From Desulfovibrionaceae bacterium (GTDB lineage: Bacteria > Desulfobacterota > Desulfovibrionia > Desulfovibrionales > Desulfovibrionaceae): DNA of 64,000 bases. Positions within the stretch are counted from its first letter, which is position 1; every line of letters begins with the position of its first letter. The position numbers were made by a program, and so were the translations under genes. This document shows, piece by piece, positions 1 to 39,056 of the stretch. Where the stretch lies: NCBI GenBank assembly GCA_910575755.1, contig CAJTFO010000001.1, forward strand, positions 310,001-374,000, read 5' to 3'. The notes beneath the pieces are model-generated. The model had not been told where the DNA came from. It saw only the letters and a program-made list of their open reading frames with translations, and did not search any database.

Positions 1-3000
1 ATGACGGGAGCGGGCAGGTGCTGTTCCAGGCGTCCAGCATGAAGCCCTCCCTCCCCCAGCGCTTTGCGGAAATGCCCGACATTGAGGCCGACAGTTCGCA
101 GTGGTTCGGCGAGGGAAAGGCCATTGCGGCGGACACGAAAAACCTGCGCAAAAACCTCAAAAAATGGGCCAAGGAAAATTTCTCCGGCAAGACGGCTGTC
201 GCCAATGCTGATACAGGATGGGAAGTGCGGGTGACGCCCAAAAGCGTCGAAAACTCTCTTTCACATGGCTTTGATGAACCCCTGGCCCGTTCCGTGCCGT
301 TTATTCCGCAAATTGTGGAAAGCGGCATTCATGTGGCTACCATAGAGAAGAAAGCCGGCCTCATGTCGCATATCTTTGCCAACAAGATCAGGCTGGACGG
401 CAAGGGGTATGTGGTGGGTTTTGTCGTGCGGGAGGATGCGAACGGGAATCGCTTCTATGATCACGAGCTGACGGAAATAATCGACCCCGGTTGGTTATAT
501 CAGGACCACTTCCAAAAAAAGGAAAACTGGTACACTGAGCCGGCCAACCGGGGCCATGTGATGAACATACTCCGGGACAAGCTTGGCGTCAATGACGGGA
601 GCGGGCAAGTGCTGTTCCAGGCGGCCAGCATGAAGCCCTCCCTCCCCCGGCGCTTTGCGGAAATGCCCGGCATTGAGGCCGACAGTTCGCAGTGGTTCGG
701 CGAGGGAAAGGCCATTGCATTGCCCGGCAAGATCGAGACGCCTGAACAGCGCAAAGCCCTGCGCGGCGCGCTCAAGCAATGGGCGAAAGAAAACTTTTCC
801 AGGGATACGGCTGTCGTCAATGCGGATACGGGCTGGCAAGTCCAGGTGACGCCCAAGGGCATAGAAGATTCGCTTTCACATGGCCTTGACGAACCCCTGG
901 CCCGTTCCGTGCCGTTCATTCCGCAAATTGTGGAAAGCGGCATTCATGTGGACAGTATCAGAAAAACACCGCAACTCATTTCACATTTATTTGCAAACAA
1001 AATCAGATTGGACGGCAAGGATTATGTGGTAGGCTTCGTGTTGAGGGAGGATGTCAACGGCAATCGTTTTTATGATCACGAGCTGACGGAAATAATCGAC
1101 CCCGACTGGCTCGCACCGGGCCATCCTTCAAGTGAAGGTCCTTCTGGAGAAGGGTCGTCTGGACACCGGACCAATCGGGGTGATGTGATGAACATACTCC
1201 GGGACAGGCTTGGTGTCAATGACGGGAGCGGACAGGTGCTGTTCCAGGCGGCCAGCATGAAGCCCTCCCTCCCCCGGCGCTTTGCGGAAATGCCCGGCAT
1301 TGAGGCCGACAGTTCGCAGTGGTTCGGCGAGGGGAAGGCCATTGCGGCGGATGGTCAAAATACGCGCAAGGCTGTCGTGGACTGGGCGCGTAGCGCATTC
1401 CCACAGGGCATGACGATCAGGAACGCGGACCAGGGCTGGGCCGTACAGGTTACACCGAACGGAATCAAGGCCAGCCTTCATCACGGGTATGACGATTTGC
1501 TGGCCCGTTCCGTGCCGTTCATTCCGCAAATTGTGGAAAGCGGCATTCATGTGGCTTCCACAGAGAAAAAAGCCGGCCTCATGTCGCATATCTTTGCCAA
1601 CAAGATCAGGCTGGACGGCAAGGATTATGTGGTGGGTTTTGTACTGCGCGAAGACAAAATGGGAAACCGCTTTTACGATCATGAACTGACGGAAATAATC
1701 GACCCCGACTGGCTAAAGCCGGGCCGAGACACTTCCGCGGAAGCCTTGGGACACCGGACCAATCGGGGCCATGTGATGAACATACTCCGGGACAGGCTTG
1801 GCGTCAATGACGGGAGCGGGCGGGTGATGTTCCAGCCCGATTCCGACCCGGCCAACGCGCGGGGGATGGTCCAGTTTCGCGCTGACGGAAGTTCCGTCAC
1901 CTCCATTTTTGCGGGCGCTTCCGACCTGTCAACCCCCATTCACGAGGGCGCGCACATCTTCATCAATGACCTTATCCGCGTGGTTGCGGGCGGTTGGCGC
2001 ATGGCCGAACAGCTCTTCGCGCGCGAATTCACAGCCGTCAGCAATGATGCCTCCATTGACGATTCCCTGCGGCAGCGCCGGCAGCGCGCACTCACCCGGC
2101 GCTGGAACAAGCACAAAATGGGGCTGTGGCAGGCGCGCGAAGATCTGGCCGCCCTGGTGGAGAACGCCAACGCCCAGCGTGAGGCCCACGGCAAGGCCAT
2201 TGGGGCGCATCTGCCCCCGGTGACGCTGGAAGAAGTTGTTCAGGGCACGGCGACCCCGGAGCAGATTCGGACATTGCAGGAGGTCAATGCCGTCAGCTTT
2301 GAAGGTTATGTGCGCGAAGGCAGGGCCCCTTCCTCAAGGCTGGCGGCCGTGTTTCACAAAATGCGGCAGTGGCTTGCCGCCATCTACCGGCTGGCCGGCA
2401 TTCATGGCGTCAAGGTGACGCCGGAAGTGCGCCGTGTCTTTGACCGCATGCTGGCCAATGATGAGGCCATCCGCAAGAGCGCCGCCGGAACGGCCCTGGC
2501 CGGGGAAGGGGAATTTCTTTCCATTGTGCGGGATGAGGAAGCGGAACTCGTCATAGACGAATCCGGTCAATGGAAGCGGAAAGACAGAATCAATTACAAG
2601 GCCGCGCTGAACAGGCAGAGCGAACATGAGCGGCTTCAGGAGCTGTATGAACGCGCCGAAGCCCATGTGACCGCCCGCATGGACAAGGCCACATTGCGGG
2701 ACAGAAACAAGCGCTGGAAGGCCTACTATGATGAAGGCAGGGAGATGGCCCGCGGCGATGTGTATTATGAAATTGTGGCCGCGCTGACCGTGAAGGAGGG
2801 CAACCCCTGGTCCGGCATCAGCCGCGCATGGCTGGAACAGCAGTATGGAAAGGCGGCCGTGGCCGACTTTATGAAGACGGCGCAGGGGCGGCGGCTGCTG
2901 AACAAAAACGGCGGCCAGACGCTGGACGCGGTGGGCGTCGGGGATATTGTGGGCAATATGGACAGAGCCGTGGCCATGGGCATTGCCGATGCCGACGGGC

Positions 3001-6000
3001 TGTACAATTATCTTTATGATAATGTTGTGACGCGCCGCCGTTCCCTTGCCGATGACGCCCGCGCCTGGGCTGATCAGCGCATGGCCGATGACGACGCCCG
3101 CGCCGAAGAGACCGGGAACGATCCGGGCGAAGCCTACCGCGCCTATCTGGAGGAAGTGGAAGCCACTGTGCTGCGTCTTGCCGCCAGACAGGATGCCGGC
3201 TGGCGCACGCCGGAGCAGCAGGCGCGCTGGGTGGAAGAGCAGCGCACGCCGTTGACGCAGGTGCGGCGTCAGGTCAAAAGCATCCTGCGCGGCAGACCTC
3301 TTAAGGAAATTCTGCCCAACCAGTTTGTGGGCGAAGTGCGCAAGGCGCTGCAAGAGCGCAACGCGGCGCTTGCAGCGGGCAATGCCCTGGACGCCCTCGC
3401 GGCTGTGGACCGCGCCCGCACGGCGCTGGAAAGCTGGATTGAAGCGAACCGCATTCGCAAGGAACAGGAAGACTTTGAACGGCTGGCGAAGCGTCTTTCA
3501 GCGCTCAAGCGGGATGTTGTGGTTCCGGAGGCATGGACGGCCATACAGGATATGCTGGAGCGTTTCGAGCTTGCAGCCAGGCGCCGTGCCGGCGACAGCC
3601 CTGTGACTCTCGGCGAGGCCGTGGCGGCCCTGTGTGCGGATTCCGCCGAAATCAACGGGCTGCCCGCCATTGCTGAATGGCTGCTGAACGAAAAGGAAAG
3701 CGGATCATACAGGAATCTGACAGCGGAACAACTGCGGGATGTGTCTGACGCGCTGAAGATGCTGGAACACATGGGGCGCGAGGCGCTGGCCGGCAACAAG
3801 GCGAGCGAGGCCGCGCGGGTAAGGGAAGTGGCTGACGCCGGCATGGAAAACATGAGCGGGCTGGCCCCCGTGTCCGTGGCTCGTGAAGGAACGGCATGGC
3901 GCAAATGGCAGGATTGGATGCGCTCGTACTTTGGAGGCATGCTTTCTTCCATACAATGGCAGTTGCGTCAGGCTGACGGTTTTTCCAACCTGGGGCCCGA
4001 AGGCAGGCGGGGCATCAGTGAAGAAAGGATATACGGCGCCATTGTGGATGGCGAGACCCGCCGCGAAGTGCGCATGCGCGGGCTGGTGGAACGCATGGAG
4101 CCAGTCTTCCGGCGACTCGCGGACAGCGCCAGGAAATGGGAGGCTGAGCGGGGCAAGGCATTGACCGGAGCGGACGGCAAGCCCTTGCCCGTGCCGGAAA
4201 TCATGCGCCGGGGCGGCAAGCTCAACTGGACGGCGGATCGCGTCATTGCTCTGGCCATGAACCTGGGCAATGAGGGCAACGCCTTGCGCCTGCGGGAGGG
4301 CTACCCGGACCTGACGGCGGATACGCTGGCCAGGCTTGTGGGGGATGACGCCACGCGGCTTGTGTTCTCCGACTGGCAGAGCACAGACAATGAAGGGCTG
4401 CTGTCCGCCCAGGACTGGCGGGATGTGCAGGAGGTGGGGAACATCCTGCAATCGCAATGGAAAGACATTCAGGCCACGCATGAGCGCATGTTCGGTTTCA
4501 AGCCGCGCGGCGTGGAGGCCCGGCCCATGACCATACGGGTGAAGGGCGAAAGCGTCAGCCTCAACGGCTGGTATTATCCCGCCGTCTATGACCCTTCGCT
4601 TTCTCCCGAAGTGCAAAAACGACAGGAACAGCAGGACGCCATTGTGCGCACGGAGGCCGTGTGCGCCGCGCCGGCCGCCAAACGCGGATTCACCAGGGCG
4701 CGGGCCAATGGAGGCGGCGGCGCGCCCCTGCTGCTGGAAACAGGCGTTATCATGGCGCACCTCAATGATGTGACCCGCTTCATCGAATTGGCGGAAACGG
4801 TGCGCTTCGCGGACAGGGTGACGCGGTCGGCTCAATGGCGGGACGCCTATATCCGCGCTTTCGGGCGGCAGGATTATGACGCCATACGACCCAACCTCAA
4901 GGGCATTGTGCTGGAAGAGCGGCCCGCCACCGACGCCATCAGCAAATCCGCCGACTGGCTGCGGGAAAGGCTCGTGCCCTGGGGGCTGGCCTTCAATTTC
5001 AAGACAGCCCTGCTGCAATCCACGGCCATCTTTCCGGCCATGAACGATCTGGGCGCGGCCAACGTGCTGCGCGGCGTGGCCGCCGTGGCCAGGGGCAGAT
5101 ATGCGCTGGTACGGCAGATATGGGAGCAGTCGCCCTATATGAAATCGCGCGCGCGGAACATTGACCAGGATTTGCGCAAGACCCTGCGGGGCGTTGACGC
5201 CCGCACCCGCCAGAAAACGCTCAAGCTGCTGGGAAAGGAGATATCCTGGCAGGATGTGGTGGACGCCGGCATGCTGCCGCTTGTTTCTGTTGACATGGCC
5301 GCGAGTTCCGCCATCTGGATGGCGGCCTACAATCGGGAAATGGCCATACTGGCGAACAGCCGTAACGTGCTCCCCGGCATTGACCCCGCGAGCGAACATC
5401 ACGCCGCGGCCGTGCGTGCGGCGGATATGGCCGTCAAGGCCATCAACCCGGACTTCAACCCTTCCAGCCGCAGCCAGTTTTTGCGCAGCCGCGGCGCGGT
5501 GCGGCTGCTGAACATCTTTTCCAGCGCCGTGGTGCTTTTCGCCCAGCGCCGGGCCTACAATGCCGCCGCCCGGCGGCAGGCCATACACGCGGGCGGCGGA
5601 GGCTACAGGGCGCGTCTGGCGGCCTGGGGAACATACGCCCGTTATGAGGCCTATGACTTCGCCCTGCAGGGCATAGCCATGGGGCTTGTTCTGTCCCTTG
5701 CCTATGGCGAGGACGAGCCGGACAAGTGGGCAAAAAACATGGGCGGGGCCTGGCTGGACGCCGCGTCCATGCGCGTGCCGGTGTTCAACAGCATGATTAC
5801 CGGCCTGATCACCGGCGACACCTGGCGCGGCATGTCCACCGTGTATCAGCAGCCGTGGGATATGGCCAAAAGGCTGCGCGGCGCGGCCAGGACGGGCGAG
5901 GCCGACAAGCTGACGGCATCAATGGCGGATGTGCTCAGCTTCCTCGTCAAGGTTCCCGCAAGCCGTGTATGGCGCAATGCCGAACGCGGCTATGAACAGT

Positions 6001-6059
6001 GGGAAAAGGGGGAAGGCACGCCGGCATCCGTGCTGATGCCCCGGCCCAACAGCTATTAA
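1..6059 (+). CDS. Giant phage polyvalent protein with tandem repeats and HExxH peptidase motif (5' end outside window)
   Basis: Reading is open from the first base. The repeat motif NDGSGQVLFQ, which closes each repeat, is already being read at base 1, so the gene begins upstream. Counting from the GTG at 18, residues 1-602 are three tandem repeats of 197, 209 and 196 residues, each beginning LFQ(A/S)SMKPSLP and ending GVNDGSG. Their core (DxGWxVxVTP...SLxHG...ANKIRLDG) recalls the LPD3/BECR-type RNase-like domains of polyvalent phage proteins. This assignment is from memory and tentative. Residues 642-646 are HEGAH, preceded by LSTPI, like the zinc peptidase domain of such proteins. Long helical, Arg/Ala-rich segments follow. 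The last 400 or so residues contain a hydrophobic stretch (GIAMGLVLSLAYG) and resemble LPD38-like C-terminal domains. Proteins of this kind are thought to be packaged and injected with phage DNA. No clear start can be given. Confidence 0.8.
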   Translation, partial: DGSGQVLFQASSMKPSLPQRFAEMPDIEADSSQWFGEGKAIAADTKNLRKNLKKWAKENFSGKTAVANADTGWEVRVTPKSVENSLSHGFDEPLARSVPFIPQIVESGIHVATIEKKAGLMSHIFANKIRLDGKGYVVGFVVREDANGNRFYDHELTEIIDPGWLYQDHFQKKENWYTEPANRGHVMNILRDKLGVNDGSGQVLFQAASMKPSLPRRFAEMPGIEADSSQWFGEGKAIALPGKIETPEQRKALRGALKQWAKENFSRDTAVVNADTGWQVQVTPKGIEDSLSHGLDEPLARSVPFIPQIVESGIHVDSIRKTPQLISHLFANKIRLDGKDYVVGFVLREDVNGNRFYDHELTEIIDPDWLAPGHPSSEGPSGEGSSGHRTNRGDVMNILRDRLGVNDGSGQVLFQAASMKPSLPRRFAEMPGIEADSSQWFGEGKAIAADGQNTRKAVVDWARSAFPQGMTIRNADQGWAVQVTPNGIKASLHHGYDDLLARSVPFIPQIVESGIHVASTEKKAGLMSHIFANKIRLDGKDYVVGFVLREDKMGNRFYDHELTEIIDPDWLKPGRDTSAEALGHRTNRGHVMNILRDRLGVNDGSGRVMFQPDSDPANARGMVQFRADGSSVTSIFAGASDLSTPIHEGAHIFINDLIRVVAGGWRMAEQLFAREFTAVSNDASIDDSLRQRRQRALTRRWNKHKMGLWQAREDLAALVENANAQREAHGKAIGAHLPPVTLEEVVQGTATPEQIRTLQEVNAVSFEGYVREGRAPSSRLAAVFHKMRQWLAAIYRLAGIHGVKVTPEVRRVFDRMLANDEAIRKSAAGTALAGEGEFLSIVRDEEAELVIDESGQWKRKDRINYKAALNRQSEHERLQELYERAEAHVTARMDKATLRDRNKRWKAYYDEGREMARGDVYYEIVAALTVKEGNPWSGISRAWLEQQYGKAAVADFMKTAQGRRLLNKNGGQTLDAVGVGDIVGNMDRAVAMGIADADGLYNYLYDNVVTRRRSLADDARAWADQRMADDDARAEETGNDPGEAYRAYLEEVEATVLRLAARQDAGWRTPEQQARWVEEQRTPLTQVRRQVKSILRGRPLKEILPNQFVGEVRKALQERNAALAAGNALDALAAVDRARTALESWIEANRIRKEQEDFERLAKRLSALKRDVVVPEAWTAIQDMLERFELAARRRAGDSPVTLGEAVAALCADSAEINGLPAIAEWLLNEKESGSYRNLTAEQLRDVSDALKMLEHMGREALAGNKASEAARVREVADAGMENMSGLAPVSVAREGTAWRKWQDWMRSYFGGMLSSIQWQLRQADGFSNLGPEGRRGISEERIYGAIVDGETRREVRMRGLVERMEPVFRRLADSARKWEAERGKALTGADGKPLPVPEIMRRGGKLNWTADRVIALAMNLGNEGNALRLREGYPDLTADTLARLVGDDATRLVFSDWQSTDNEGLLSAQDWRDVQEVGNILQSQWKDIQATHERMFGFKPRGVEARPMTIRVKGESVSLNGWYYPAVYDPSLSPEVQKRQEQQDAIVRTEAVCAAPAAKRGFTRARANGGGGAPLLLETGVIMAHLNDVTRFIELAETVRFADRVTRSAQWRDAYIRAFGRQDYDAIRPNLKGIVLEERPATDAISKSADWLRERLVPWGLAFNFKTALLQSTAIFPAMNDLGAANVLRGVAAVARGRYALVRQIWEQSPYMKSRARNIDQDLRKTLRGVDARTRQKTLKLLGKEISWQDVVDAGMLPLVSVDMAASSAIWMAAYNREMAILANSRNVLPGIDPASEHHAAAVRAADMAVKAINPDFNPSSRSQFLRSRGAVRLLNIFSSAVVLFAQRRAYNAAARRQAIHAGGGGYRARLAAWGTYARYEAYDFALQGIAMGLVLSLAYGEDEPDKWAKNMGGAWLDAASMRVPVFNSMITGLITGDTWRGMSTVYQQPWDMAKRLRGAARTGEADKLTASMADVLSFLVKVPASRVWRNAERGYEQWEKGEGTPASVLMPRPNSY
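18..1823 (+). repeat. Three tandem coding repeats of about 590-627 bp
   Basis: Repeat units begin at the same VLFQ codons at 18, 609 and 1236, and the next VMFQ junction is at 1824, giving periods of 591, 627 and 588 bp, all multiples of three. Blocks such as the codons for RSVPFIPQIVESGIHV are almost identical in all three copies. The segment after GEGKAIA and the linker after EIIDP differ in length and sequence. The partial repeat end before base 18 shows at least one more copy upstream. Confidence 0.95.
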
Positions 6060-6181: not shown

Positions 6182-6359
6182 GTACCGGGCAAATCACAAA
6201 AAATTACATATAAGACATTGATATATTTTGATAAGTTTACTTGAAAAAAGAAATTCGACCTATGAGGATGCCTTGTAAAGCCTGTTAATTGTTCATAAAG
6301 CGTGTTCTTTGCCGCTGTTCCCCCGAAAGCATGACGTTTATGGATTTTGTCAAAGTTTT

Positions 6360-6566
6360 TTACCTCTTCATGCTTTCCGCGCCGGAAGGAATGTTTTCCT
6401 TAAAATTTTCAAGCCATTGAACATGTATTCGCCACGTTGGACGCCTGCTTTGCGCGGAGATATTCTTTGCCTGAATATGTCCCCTCCTGATAAGCTTGCG
6501 CACCGTATCGGCACTCACCCCCAGATTTTCCGCCACCTGGCCTACGCTATACCATTCCGTAGCCAT
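6360..6566 (-). CDS. Excisionase-like helix-turn-helix protein
   Basis: A 68-residue protein starting MATEWYSVGQVAENLG. The segment SVGQVAENLGVSADTVRKL followed by IRRG and later RRPTWRIH is the pattern of MerR-like/excisionase winged helix-turn-helix proteins, where the C-terminal wing precedes a short basic or acidic tail. The chosen ATG overlaps the last 20 bases of the upstream recombinase gene. A longer reading frame upstream lies inside the recombinase gene and is not believed. Position directly downstream of an integrase fits a recombination directionality factor, but a simple DNA-binding regulator is equally possible. No site for its binding was identified. Confidence 0.7.
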   Translation of the reverse strand: MATEWYSVGQVAENLGVSADTVRKLIRRGHIQAKNISAQSRRPTWRIHVQWLENFKENIPSGAESMKR

Positions 6567-7191
6567 GAATTGTCTCCATATGCCGCAAAGCGGACTGCTG
6601 ACATTCGCGATTGAAAGAGAGGTACATTTCCGTGCTGTCCATGGATTTGTGACCAAGAGCGCGAGAGGTTTCCAGCATGGGGTGAATCAATGCTCCGCGC
6701 CGCAGCATGGCTATAAAATGCCTGTGTACCTGCTCCGCATATGTCTTGCGCCAGGAATGCGTGCCCAGCGTGCCCTGATCCTCGTCAAGCCCGGCGGCGC
6801 GCGCCGCCTGATTGAAAATATTCCAGGCTTCGGCGCGGGTTATTGCCCGGCCGCCCATCTGGCTGAGAAACAAAAATTGCTGGCGGCCAAGATGACCGTT
6901 GTCCAGAAGCCATTGCACCTGACGGGCAATGGCCGCGCGAGCCGGGGCGGCAAGGTCAATGGTGCGACCGGCCAGAGCCCGCTTGGTGGAAGCTCTGGCT
7001 ATCTTGACCCGCCGCACGACGCGGCCTTTTTTCACCACGTCCGCCACGCGCAGGGACAAGGCCTCACTGACGCGCAGCCCCGTGGTGACGCAAAGCATGT
7101 GCAAAGCCTGATTCCGCAGCCGATATCTTCCCGCATACGCCCGGAACATGGCTGCGGATTCTTCAATGCTGAGTGGGCGGCAGCCTCTCAC
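6547..7191 (-). CDS. Phage integrase, tyrosine recombinase, catalytic domain only
   Basis: A 214-residue protein with the tyrosine recombinase residues in order: R40 (TTGLRVSEAL), H145 and R148 (HSWRKT), H181 (LGHKS) and Y190 (STEMYLSF). It would catalyse site-specific integration or excision. I chose the GTG at 7191 because a GGAGG Shine-Dalgarno sits about 8 bases before it and because its first bases (GTGA) overlap the stop codon of the upstream zinc-ribbon frame. An ATG at 7239 has no good ribosome site. Either start leaves the protein without the usual N-terminal core-binding domain, which is short for the family (typically over 300 residues). The excisionase-like gene overlaps its 3' end. 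Confidence 0.85.
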   Translation of the reverse strand: MRGCRPLSIEESAAMFRAYAGRYRLRNQALHMLCVTTGLRVSEALSLRVADVVKKGRVVRRVKIARASTKRALAGRTIDLAAPARAAIARQVQWLLDNGHLGRQQFLFLSQMGGRAITRAEAWNIFNQAARAAGLDEDQGTLGTHSWRKTYAEQVHRHFIAMLRRGALIHPMLETSRALGHKSMDSTEMYLSFNRECQQSALRHMETIHGYGMV

Positions 7192-7645
7192 GGCAAAACC
7201 TCCATAAACGGAAAATTGGCTATCTGATCGCGTGTCCATGCGGCAAAGCGCTGAAAGCGAGGGTCCGTATTGCAGGCGCAACGAAAAAGCTGAATATAGT
7301 CCCCCTCGCCGGCATGCGCATGAACATGAACCCGTATCCAGCCAGGGAAACCATGCGAGCAGTCCGGACAGCCCTCCCGCGGCCTGGAGCACGCTTCGCG
7401 AAACGATTCAACCTGCCTGTTTTTTTGTATTCTTCATACAGGGCGTTGAGTTCGTACCCCAGATTTGTGCCGCGCGTCATGCGCGCTGTCCGGCGGATAA
7501 ATTCGTTGACCACCCATGCCGACGCCATCAGCGGCATGTGCCCGGCAACCTGATGCCAGGCATGCAGCGTCGCATCCTCAGGCTCGGGAAAGACAAATGC
7601 CGCGCAGATTTTTTGCACCGCGGCGTCAAACTCCAGACGTGTCAT
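7188..7645 (-). pseudogene. Phage protein with C-terminal zinc ribbon, interrupted by a frameshift at an A7 run
   Basis: The gene starts at the ATG at 7645 (MTRLEFDAAVQK), 8 bases after the replication gene, with GAGG upstream. In the starting frame it runs on to 7220 with a composition unlike a folded domain. A minus-one shift at the A7 run (7420-7426) moves it into a frame reading QVESFREACSRPREGCPDC, a linker and RCACNTD, and ending at 7188. This gives two CxxC/CxC pairs typical of a zinc ribbon. That stop overlaps the GTG start of the recombinase in a GTGA, which strongly argues the second frame is the evolved one. It may be a genuine indel, a sequencing error in the homopolymer, or programmed slippage. 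The function is unknown. Confidence 0.65.
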
Positions 7646-7653
7646 TGTTCGCC

Positions 7654-8451
7654 TCACCCGCGCGCGCCCTGAAATTGCGCCGTGAGTTCATCAAAACTTG
7701 GCGCGGCGCAACGATGCGGCCCGGCCCGGCCCTGTTTGCGGCGGCGATCGGCCACGGCATCAAAAACCCATTTGCGCATGGCCAGGTAGTGGGACTTGTA
7801 CGGGTCCCGCTTTCTGCTGGCCCCCAGATGCTGGTCCAGCAGGGCTATGGCTTCATCCGTGGCGTCCGCGCCGTAGTGCTCACGCAACCTGTCAAGCTCC
7901 GTAGCCGTAAGCAGCACGTTGCCGTATTCTCCGTGTCTCTGCTTGCCTTCATGTTCCTCCGCCCTGACGGAGCGTGTGCGCGTCCGCGCGGACGCGTTTT
8001 CTTTCTCTGGGAGATTCCTGACAGGTTCTCTTGGAGATTCTCCCCGAACCACATTCGGGGGAGGAGTGAACGTGGTTCGGGGGAGGGGGGAACCAGATTC
8101 GGGGGTGTCCCGAACCACGTTCGGGGGCGCATCCCGTTCGGGGGTGAACGTGGTTCGGGGGCGCATCTCCTTCGGGGGCGCGCCGCTTTCCCTGCCCTGC
8201 ACGCCAAGAAGCTTGTAGGTATTGACCTTGCCGCACGCCGGCAGGCGACGAACAAGACCGAGCCCCTCCAGGTCCCTCATGGCCTTCTGCACGGCCCGGT
8301 CTGAAAGCCCGGTGTCCGCGCACAGACGCGCCAGTGATGGCCAGCAGGTGTGATCCTCGCCAGCGCGGTCAGCCATGGACAACAGCACAATCTTTTGCGT
8401 GGTGGTGATATGGCGTTGCTGCCACGCCCAGCGTGTTGCGTCGATACTCAT
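7654..8451 (-). CDS. RepO-like phage replication initiator with winged HTH domain
   Basis: A 265-residue protein. Residues 1 to about 90 (TTTQKIVLLSMADRAGED to KVNTYKL) form a winged helix-turn-helix domain of the kind seen at the N-terminus of phage replication proteins (HTH_36/RepO-like). A Pro/Thr/Arg-rich middle (about 91-135) is encoded by a DNA repeat array. The C-terminal part (LTATELDRLREHYG...SHYLAMRKWVFDAV) is helical. In lambda-like phages, O protein binds iterons located inside its own gene and recruits the helicase loader. The same arrangement is suggested here by the internal repeats, but is not proven. The start has a GGAGGA site that overlaps the stop region of the upstream ASCH gene. 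No helicase loader was seen nearby. Confidence 0.75.
   Translation of the reverse strand: MSIDATRWAWQQRHITTTQKIVLLSMADRAGEDHTCWPSLARLCADTGLSDRAVQKAMRDLEGLGLVRRLPACGKVNTYKLLGVQGRESGAPPKEMRPRTTFTPERDAPPNVVRDTPESGSPLPRTTFTPPPNVVRGESPREPVRNLPEKENASARTRTRSVRAEEHEGKQRHGEYGNVLLTATELDRLREHYGADATDEAIALLDQHLGASRKRDPYKSHYLAMRKWVFDAVADRRRKQGRAGPHRCAAPSFDELTAQFQGARG
8054..8178. repeat. Iteron-like array inside the replication gene, candidate phage origin
   Basis: Seven exact copies of TTCGGGGG on the + strand start at 8054, 8076, 8098, 8120, 8137, 8154 and 8171. The spacings are 22, 22, 22, 17, 17 and 17 bases. Several copies are extended to GAACGTGGTTCGGGGG, and at 8041-8061 and 8110-8127 the flanking CCGAACCAC makes an inverted arrangement. 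Because 22 and 17 are not multiples of three, the repeat is read in different codon frames, so the protein sequence alone does not explain it. Confidence 0.75.
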
Positions 8452-9444: not shown

Positions 9445-9521
<77 letters not shown>

Positions 9522-9582
9522 ACAAGATGTGTCTTGATATGCTTTGTCCTTGTCTCTGTCAAGGCGTGCCCGCTCATGGTGC

Positions 9583-9619
9583 AGGGCAATCGCATGAAGT
9601 TCAGGCCGCCGGTTTGCCC
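9583..9619. repeat. About 38-nt repeat also found near 63328
   Basis: The stretch CAGGGCAATCGCATGAAG to GCCGCCGGTTTGCCC recurs at 63326-63363 with two mismatches. It begins GGGCAA and ends TTTGCCC, so its ends are inverted. It sits just outside the IS5 remnant, upstream of tRNA-Arg. It is probably debris of an insertion sequence. Confidence 0.55.
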
Positions 9620-9627
9620 ATTAAATT

Positions 9628-10040
9628 GTGTCGTCAAATTATTGCAGTCCATAACGAGATGCAGCGGATGAACCTTGCAGTGACTTGCATCCACCATGAG
9701 CCATTCAAAATCAGGCTCAACAATGACCACTTCCAGAAGATGCTCCCAAACCCCGCGATCCCTCCAGCGACAAAACCGACGATGAGTATTTTTCCAATCC
9801 CCATAATCCGGGGGCAGGTCCCGCCACGGAGCGCCAGTTCCTAATATCCAAAAAACAGCGTTGATAAACAGTCTGTTATCATTTGCAGGGCGACCAACAA
9901 GCCCTTTGCTCCCTGGCAGGTGAGCTTGGATGTTTTCCCAAATTCGATCAGAAATATCGTGCCTGCGATGAGCTTGCATAGTCCCTCCTCGGATGCCGTG
10001 AAGGGATTATAGCAAACTTTTTATAGTTTGACGACACTAT
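9628..10040 (-). mobile_element. IS5-type element with internal deletion (copy A)
   Basis: The element has inverted ends GTGTCGTCAAAT at 9628 and TTTGACGACAC ending at 10037. The right-hand end carries the transposase start MQAHRRHDISDRIWENI at 9979 and codes for about 118 N-terminal residues (IS5-type: GRPANDNRLFINAVFWILGT, then WRDLPPDYGDWK) up to VDASHCKVHP. It then jumps to the last codons of the transposase (CISLWTAII in another frame) and the second end. The catalytic middle is lost, so it cannot move by itself. The same ends occur in copy B near 32.6 kb. Confidence 0.85.
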
Positions 10041-38735: not shown

Positions 38736-39056
38736 GATTACCTTCCGCAATGCGTTTCAGCGCCGGGCCGGCTCTGTGCGGCGCACAGGCATCCGCACAA
38801 AAGGAAAAGAGCCGCCCTGCGGACGCTGTGAACCGTCTTATACATGATTCACCGGGTCAGATAAAGTCCCGCCGCCTCAAGCAACTCAGCCGGGCGGCGA
38901 CAGGAACGGCATGGTTGCCTGTGGAAGCTGCGCCCATCTTGTTTGTCAGGCACTGAGAGCGTGTTGTTGCGGCGCATCCTTTTCAACCTGAACATATTGC
39001 CGCCTTCCCATGTGCGCAACCTTGCGCTGTAAGCCCATACAGGCTACAACTGGCCA

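Follow-up and report, generated by a model that had tools for sequence, protein, structure and literature searches.

The initiator gene and its prophage setting

The 64-kb stretch of DNA analysed here (the window) carries on its minus strand, at positions 7654–8451, a gene for a protein of 265 amino acids, which is assigned as a replication initiator from Pfam, PHROG and an AlphaFold2 model. The protein matches the HTH_36 profile (PF13730) with an E-value of 6.8e-14 and 51.9 bits against a curated cut-off of 25, and its PHROG matches are replication initiation or O-like families (phrog_6643, 8.5e-28; phrog_1032, 6.3e-25; phrog_391, 2.3e-19). In the model, the HTH_36 domain (residues 1–82) forms a confident winged helix, which is followed by a proline-rich linker of low confidence (residues ~83–178, disordered) and by a helical C-terminal part (residues 183–261) with a match to a replisome-organizer family. 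The codons of the recognition helix (residues 51–63, the first being Asp51) are located approximately at positions 8267–8301 of the minus strand, as judged from the AlphaFold2 helix and from the residue–base association described below. Comparison of the initiator with solved structures gave no match by sequence, and a fold search with the model returned generic winged-helix matches only, none with E below 0.001. Used as sole query, the initiator found no relative among the viral contigs.

The gene is part of a prophage. Integrase and excisionase-like genes adjoin it, the former being a tyrosine integrase on the minus strand at 6547–7227 (Pfam Phage_integrase, E 8e-15; PHROG integrase), and genes for terminase, head-tail adaptor, tail and lytic transglycosylase lie to the left. 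The end of the structural genes is formed by a virion-type protein of 2013 amino acids (18–6059) carrying three LPD3 (large polyvalent protein) domains in tandem. A tRNA-Arg is present to the right of the initiator gene, and directly right of this tRNA an ORF at 9512–9979 resembles, by eye, a truncated IS transposase. An attachment repeat, looked for up to 60 kb leftward, was not found. The ORF next to the initiator (7220–7657, minus strand, 145 aa) overlaps the initiator stop by 4 bp and matched nothing in Pfam, PHROGs or NCBIfam. The analysis identified no gene for a helicase loader, and from its position this ORF is, as a guess, a candidate for a partner of that kind.

A seven-unit repeat array in the linker-coding region

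Exact matching across the window confirms the seven copies of TTCGGGGG which the sequence-only reading had described, with plus-strand starts at 8054, 8076, 8098, 8120, 8137, 8154 and 8171 and steps of 22, 22, 22, 17, 17 and 17 bp. On the minus strand, in the direction of the gene, the unit reads CCCCCGAA (n = 7) and the steps run 17, 17, 17, 22, 22 and 22. The count of this 8-mer is by itself unremarkable (4.2 copies are expected per 64 kb), and it is the clustering which is the notable feature. Outside the array, the only further copy in the window is an isolated one at 6320 on the minus strand, and an array of this kind occurs only once in the host genome.

Analysis of the flanking bases reveals that the unit is longer than 8 bp and consists of a C-tract followed by an 11-bp dyad, GAAC-NNN-GTTC, the ideal unit being CCCC-GAAC-NNN-GTTC. 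The array of seven units occupies positions 8045–8178 of the minus strand, in the linker-coding region. Its span had been given earlier as 8054–8178, which is right in location and slightly short, as the last unit extends with its right arm to ~8043. Units 1 (8162–8178, CCCCCGAAGGAGATGCG), 2 (8145–8161, CCCCCGAACCACGTTCA) and 3 (8128–8144, CCCCCGAACGGGATGCG) are each followed by the next unit at +17, while units 4 (8111–8127, CCCCCGAACGTGGTTCG), 5 (8089–8105, CCCCCGAATCTGGTTCC) and 6 (8067–8083, with the same letters as unit 2) are followed by the next at +22. Unit 7 (8045–8061, CCCCCGAATGTGGTTCG) contains the best dyad (CCCCGAATGTGGTTCGGGG). The left dyad arm is GAA in all seven units, and the right arm is TTC in five, with TGC in units 1 and 3. 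The 22-bp step is the 17-bp unit plus 5 bp, i.e. half a helical turn. It had been proposed that the two spacings mark two classes of binding site. This is probably not the case, because one and the same unit is found both with and lacking the 5 extra bases and the 17-bp steps precede the 22-bp steps in nearly all GAA- and GCA-type relatives.

The copies begin at codons 92–131 of the initiator gene and use all three frames (0, 2, 1, 0, 1, 2, 0), so that they are translated as PPKE, RPRT, TPER, PPNV, TPES, LPRT and PPNV. When synonymous codons were shuffled with the protein held fixed, a mean of 0.6 and a maximum of 4 copies were obtained, and never seven, in 5000 trials. The array is thus a regular in-gene repeat which the protein sequence fails to explain, in agreement with the earlier view that it belongs to the DNA and is not a protein repeat.

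Conservation of the spacing layout among relatives

Relatives were collected in two ways. A motif-selected set was obtained by scanning viral contigs for three spaced copies of TTCGGGGG, which gave at least 120 stretches. Among the matches listed, most arrays whose spacing is a multiple of three are protein repeats. Arrays with other spacings that fall in an open frame are located in HTH proteins at 64 of 87 GAA-type loci and, in a scan for CCCCCGCA, at 78 of 87 GCA-type loci (among the matches listed), and the GAA-type arrays of this kind have mostly steps of 17 and 22 bp. A second kind of CCCCCGAA array, with steps of about 24, 25 and 46 bp and lying outside HTH_36-type proteins, is present in L016, L026, L028, L035, L054, L056, L060, L064, L100 and L115, in L035 on both strands.

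The unselected set consists of genes fetched through the HTH domain alone, the motif being ignored (172 nonredundant genes among the matches listed). The decisive test of spacing is the pooled lag test on this set: near-identical 9-mer pairs number 210 at lag 17 against 28 in synonymous shuffles, and 232 at lag 22 against 29. Neighbouring control genes show no such excess, with 14 observed against 13 shuffled at lag 17 and 11 against 12 at lag 22. The signal is kept in the 146 unselected genes without repeated CCCCGAA (148 against 21 at lag 17, 189 against 23 at lag 22). The commonest 8-mer exceeds its synonymous shuffles in 49 of 183 genes and 3 of 181 controls, a weak test because the shuffles retain the array's own codons.

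The letters of the repeat vary widely among the unselected genes (CCCGTCTCAC, AGTACCAAAA, TGTCACCC, CTAGGCCG and others), and many units are dyads. Spacing and place stay despite the change of motif, the array usually starting at codon 80–100, although some of these genes have a weak array or none that is detectable. Step order is also conserved: in 124 chains it is short-then-long in 67, long-then-short in 6 and mixed in 35, and the 17-bp steps come before the 22-bp steps in 35 of 35 chains of the GAA set and 40 of 41 of the GCA set (among the matches listed). An alignment of 12 sequences held too much diversity for scanning the locus, and close subsets took its place. Orthologs from the same genus, at ~50% identity, keep the array with a drifting motif, and one of them (L130) differs on both dyad arms (GACA-NNN-TGTC). 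Relatives with other iterons have other linker residues. The sequence-only reading had placed iterons inside an O-like gene and had proposed to check whether base spacing is kept among relatives while protein residues drift. The comparison supports this reading, motif and residues both drifting under a constant 17/22 spacing, and the opposite pattern, in which amino acids are conserved and base spacing is lost, is not what the relatives show. Searches of the open-access literature turned up neither the 17/22 layout nor the D/E rule presented below.

Co-variation of the recognition helix with the repeat

The pairing of Asp51 with GAA and Glu51 with GCA was written down as a prediction from the chains before arrays of CCCCCGCA were scanned. 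Among the matches listed, the first residue of the recognition helix is Asp in 58 and Glu in 2 of 66 genes with CCCCCGAA (GAA) arrays, and Glu in 67 and Asp in none of 79 genes with CCCCCGCA (GCA) arrays; 18 of these 145 genes have neither residue at position 51. In the unselected set, the ratio of D to E is 25:0 for GAA and 0:21 for GCA. A tree built without the recognition helix (73 columns, with many forks unresolved) places at least eight D/E changes on supported branches. In nearly every random pairing, the supported independent pairs agree 7 of 7, with a median p of 0.016 in the sign test.

The switch is best seen in two nearly identical genes from relatives, L008 (2752–3459) and L498 (4425–5141), both having six units with steps of 17, 17, 22, 22 and 22. 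Their domains differ by D/E, K/N and I/V and by one residue at the domain end. The left arms are GAA in 6/6 units of L008 and GCA in 6/6 of L498, and the right arms are TTC in 6/6 and TGC in 6/6, so that 12 of 12 half-sites differ, against 6% of the bases outside the array. At each unit the two genes encode different residues, while the spacing of the DNA and the symmetry of its dyads are kept. L437 (2823–3131) was considered as switch partner and set aside in favour of L498, which is intact. The L437 array appears collapsed to three full units, with a shift of frame and a shortened gene as the result, and this may reflect faulty assembly of the repeats.

The D/E rule depends on context, as genes with an Arg five residues beyond position 51 are associated with GACA or GCCA arrays, irrespective of whether the preceding residue is D or E. 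Such an Arg is present in L174, L179, L181, L202, L232, L257 and L130, several of which have GACA or GCCA half-sites. This suggests that the Arg position is a second specificity residue. Taken from sequences, the co-variation of the repeat with the recognition helix strongly suggests that the HTH domain reads the repeats of its own gene, and it points to the array as the initiator's own set of binding sites.

A region of low stability behind the array

A nearest-neighbour stability profile of the gene has its least stable 50 bp at 7996–8045 (minus strand), directly behind the last unit. This region is only 52% AT and is weaker than that of lambda, but it is likely, from its predicted stability and place, to be the unwinding region. 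In 56 of 122 relatives, the least stable 50 bp set in 0–39 bp downstream of the point where the last unit starts. Inside this candidate region, two near-identical repeats of 15 bp (8003–8017, TTCTCTGGGAGATTC; 8026–8040, TTCTCTTGGAGATTC) lie 23 bp apart, and each contains a 4-3-4 dyad, TCTC-NNN-GAGA.

Comparison with known in-gene origins

A close parallel is lambda, where the iterons also lie within the initiator gene, behind the DNA-binding domain and in several frames. The annotated iterons in O are located at 39034, 39054, 39078 and 39101 (steps 20, 24 and 23; frames 0, 2, 2, 1; from codon 117). Each likewise combines a dyad with C- and G-tracts, and behind them is an A-rich stretch that melts. 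Classical hybrids of the lambda/phi80 type had already assigned the origin specificity of O to its N-terminal portion. However, lambda O belongs to another family (PF04492, Phage_rep_O, 5.7e-36), to which the HTH_36 protein of the window has no match even at E up to 1, and it has four iterons and no 17-bp regime, in contrast to the seven units found here. Binding of O to its iterons is established (PMC7466680).

Gp38 of the Bacillus phage SPP1 binds direct repeats in its own gene (oriL), beside an AT-rich unwinding element (PMC6316719). The likeness to the window initiator is one of description, and SPP1 differs in having a second origin, oriR. In Rep of plasmid pSK41, an N-terminal domain binds boxes located centrally within rep, the ori-encoded linker is dispensable, and a C-terminal domain follows (PMC5703833). 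The window initiator has the same arrangement of DNA-binding domain, central in-gene sites, linker and C-terminal part. However, pSK41 is a plasmid with four Rep boxes and a RepA_N domain, and the window protein, having no match to RepA_N up to E 1, is not a member of that family. The O-like gp56 of Pseudomonas phage MD8 is a homolog of the window initiator (tblastn). Repeats within this gene are noted in one line of the MD8 report, in a mention that comes without analysis of spacing, dyad or recognition (PMC8508860). As far as sequence can tell, the array of the window works like the lambda origin, as a variant which differs in its domain family, its larger number of units and its order of 17-bp before 22-bp steps.

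Proposed function and alternatives

The explanation that we consider very probable is that the array represents the initiator's iterons, placed within linker-coding DNA and forming a lambda-type origin. The winged-helix domain, probably in dimeric form, would read the dyad arms through its recognition helix, with Asp51 matched to the GAA of CCCCCGAA. Several dimers would occupy the units spaced first by 17 and then by 22 bp and build a nucleoprotein complex, which would open the low-stability DNA at 7996–8045, and the C-terminal part of the initiator might then assist in loading the host helicase. The linker amino acids would largely be a by-product of the DNA sites. We infer origin function from homology, the place of the array, the adjoining low-stability region and precedent, and the repeats are taken as the initiator's sites from their co-variation with the recognition helix.

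It is also conceivable that the bound sites serve mainly as an operator or in copy-number control, through autorepression or handcuffing, and that the prophage has its true origin at another place. The co-variation speaks for binding and not for replication as such, and the iteron arrays of iteron plasmids often serve both replication and control. However, the array is central in the gene and not at a promoter, the least stable DNA comes after it as in lambda, and arrays in the equivalent place are origins in lambda, SPP1 and pSK41, which makes a mainly regulatory role improbable. That the region is simply a low-complexity Pro/Thr linker with incidental DNA repeats would fit its Pro-rich composition and its disorder in the model. 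Such a protein repeat is rejected with near certainty on the use of all three frames, on the failure of synonymous shuffles to yield the copies, and on the co-variation, with linker residues that differ between relatives with different iterons and change at each unit between L008 and L498 under constant DNA spacing and dyad symmetry. Other bacteria are known to carry in-gene palindromic repeats that land in more than one frame, but a mobile or amplified palindrome unrelated to gene function can hardly account for an array which occurs once in the host genome, recurs with spacings other than multiples of three in HTH proteins (in the proportions given above) and depends in sequence on the recognition helix of the protein.

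Implications

In-initiator origins are known one by one (lambda, SPP1, pSK41). Here a common spacing layout is seen in hundreds of phage initiators, whose widely differing repeats change alongside the recognition helix. We lean towards the view that the HTH_36 phage initiators are a very large class of self-recording origins, composed of dyads spaced by 17 bp, then dyads spaced by 22 bp and then a melting region, in which the dyads evolve with a few residues of the recognition helix (GAA accompanying D, GCA accompanying E, and GACA accompanying an Arg five positions further on). If this is true, sequence alone could suffice to read a recognition code, together with a series of mutually orthogonal origins. 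Because protein and target are present in one gene, many natural protein–site pairs can be read directly, and a recognition code for the HTH_36 winged-helix family becomes testable, with the L008/L498 pair as a ready specificity-switch experiment. Such reading also helps to find phage origins in metagenomes.

A minor observation concerns units 1 and 3 of the window array (8162–8178 and 8128–8144), in which a GAA left arm is combined with a TGC right arm of the GCA type. Compared with an L498 unit (CCCCCGCAGGAGATGCA), unit 1 is altered only at the switch base and at its final base, and the close relative L129 is of the Glu/GCA type. These two units could be remnants of a former GCA-type array.
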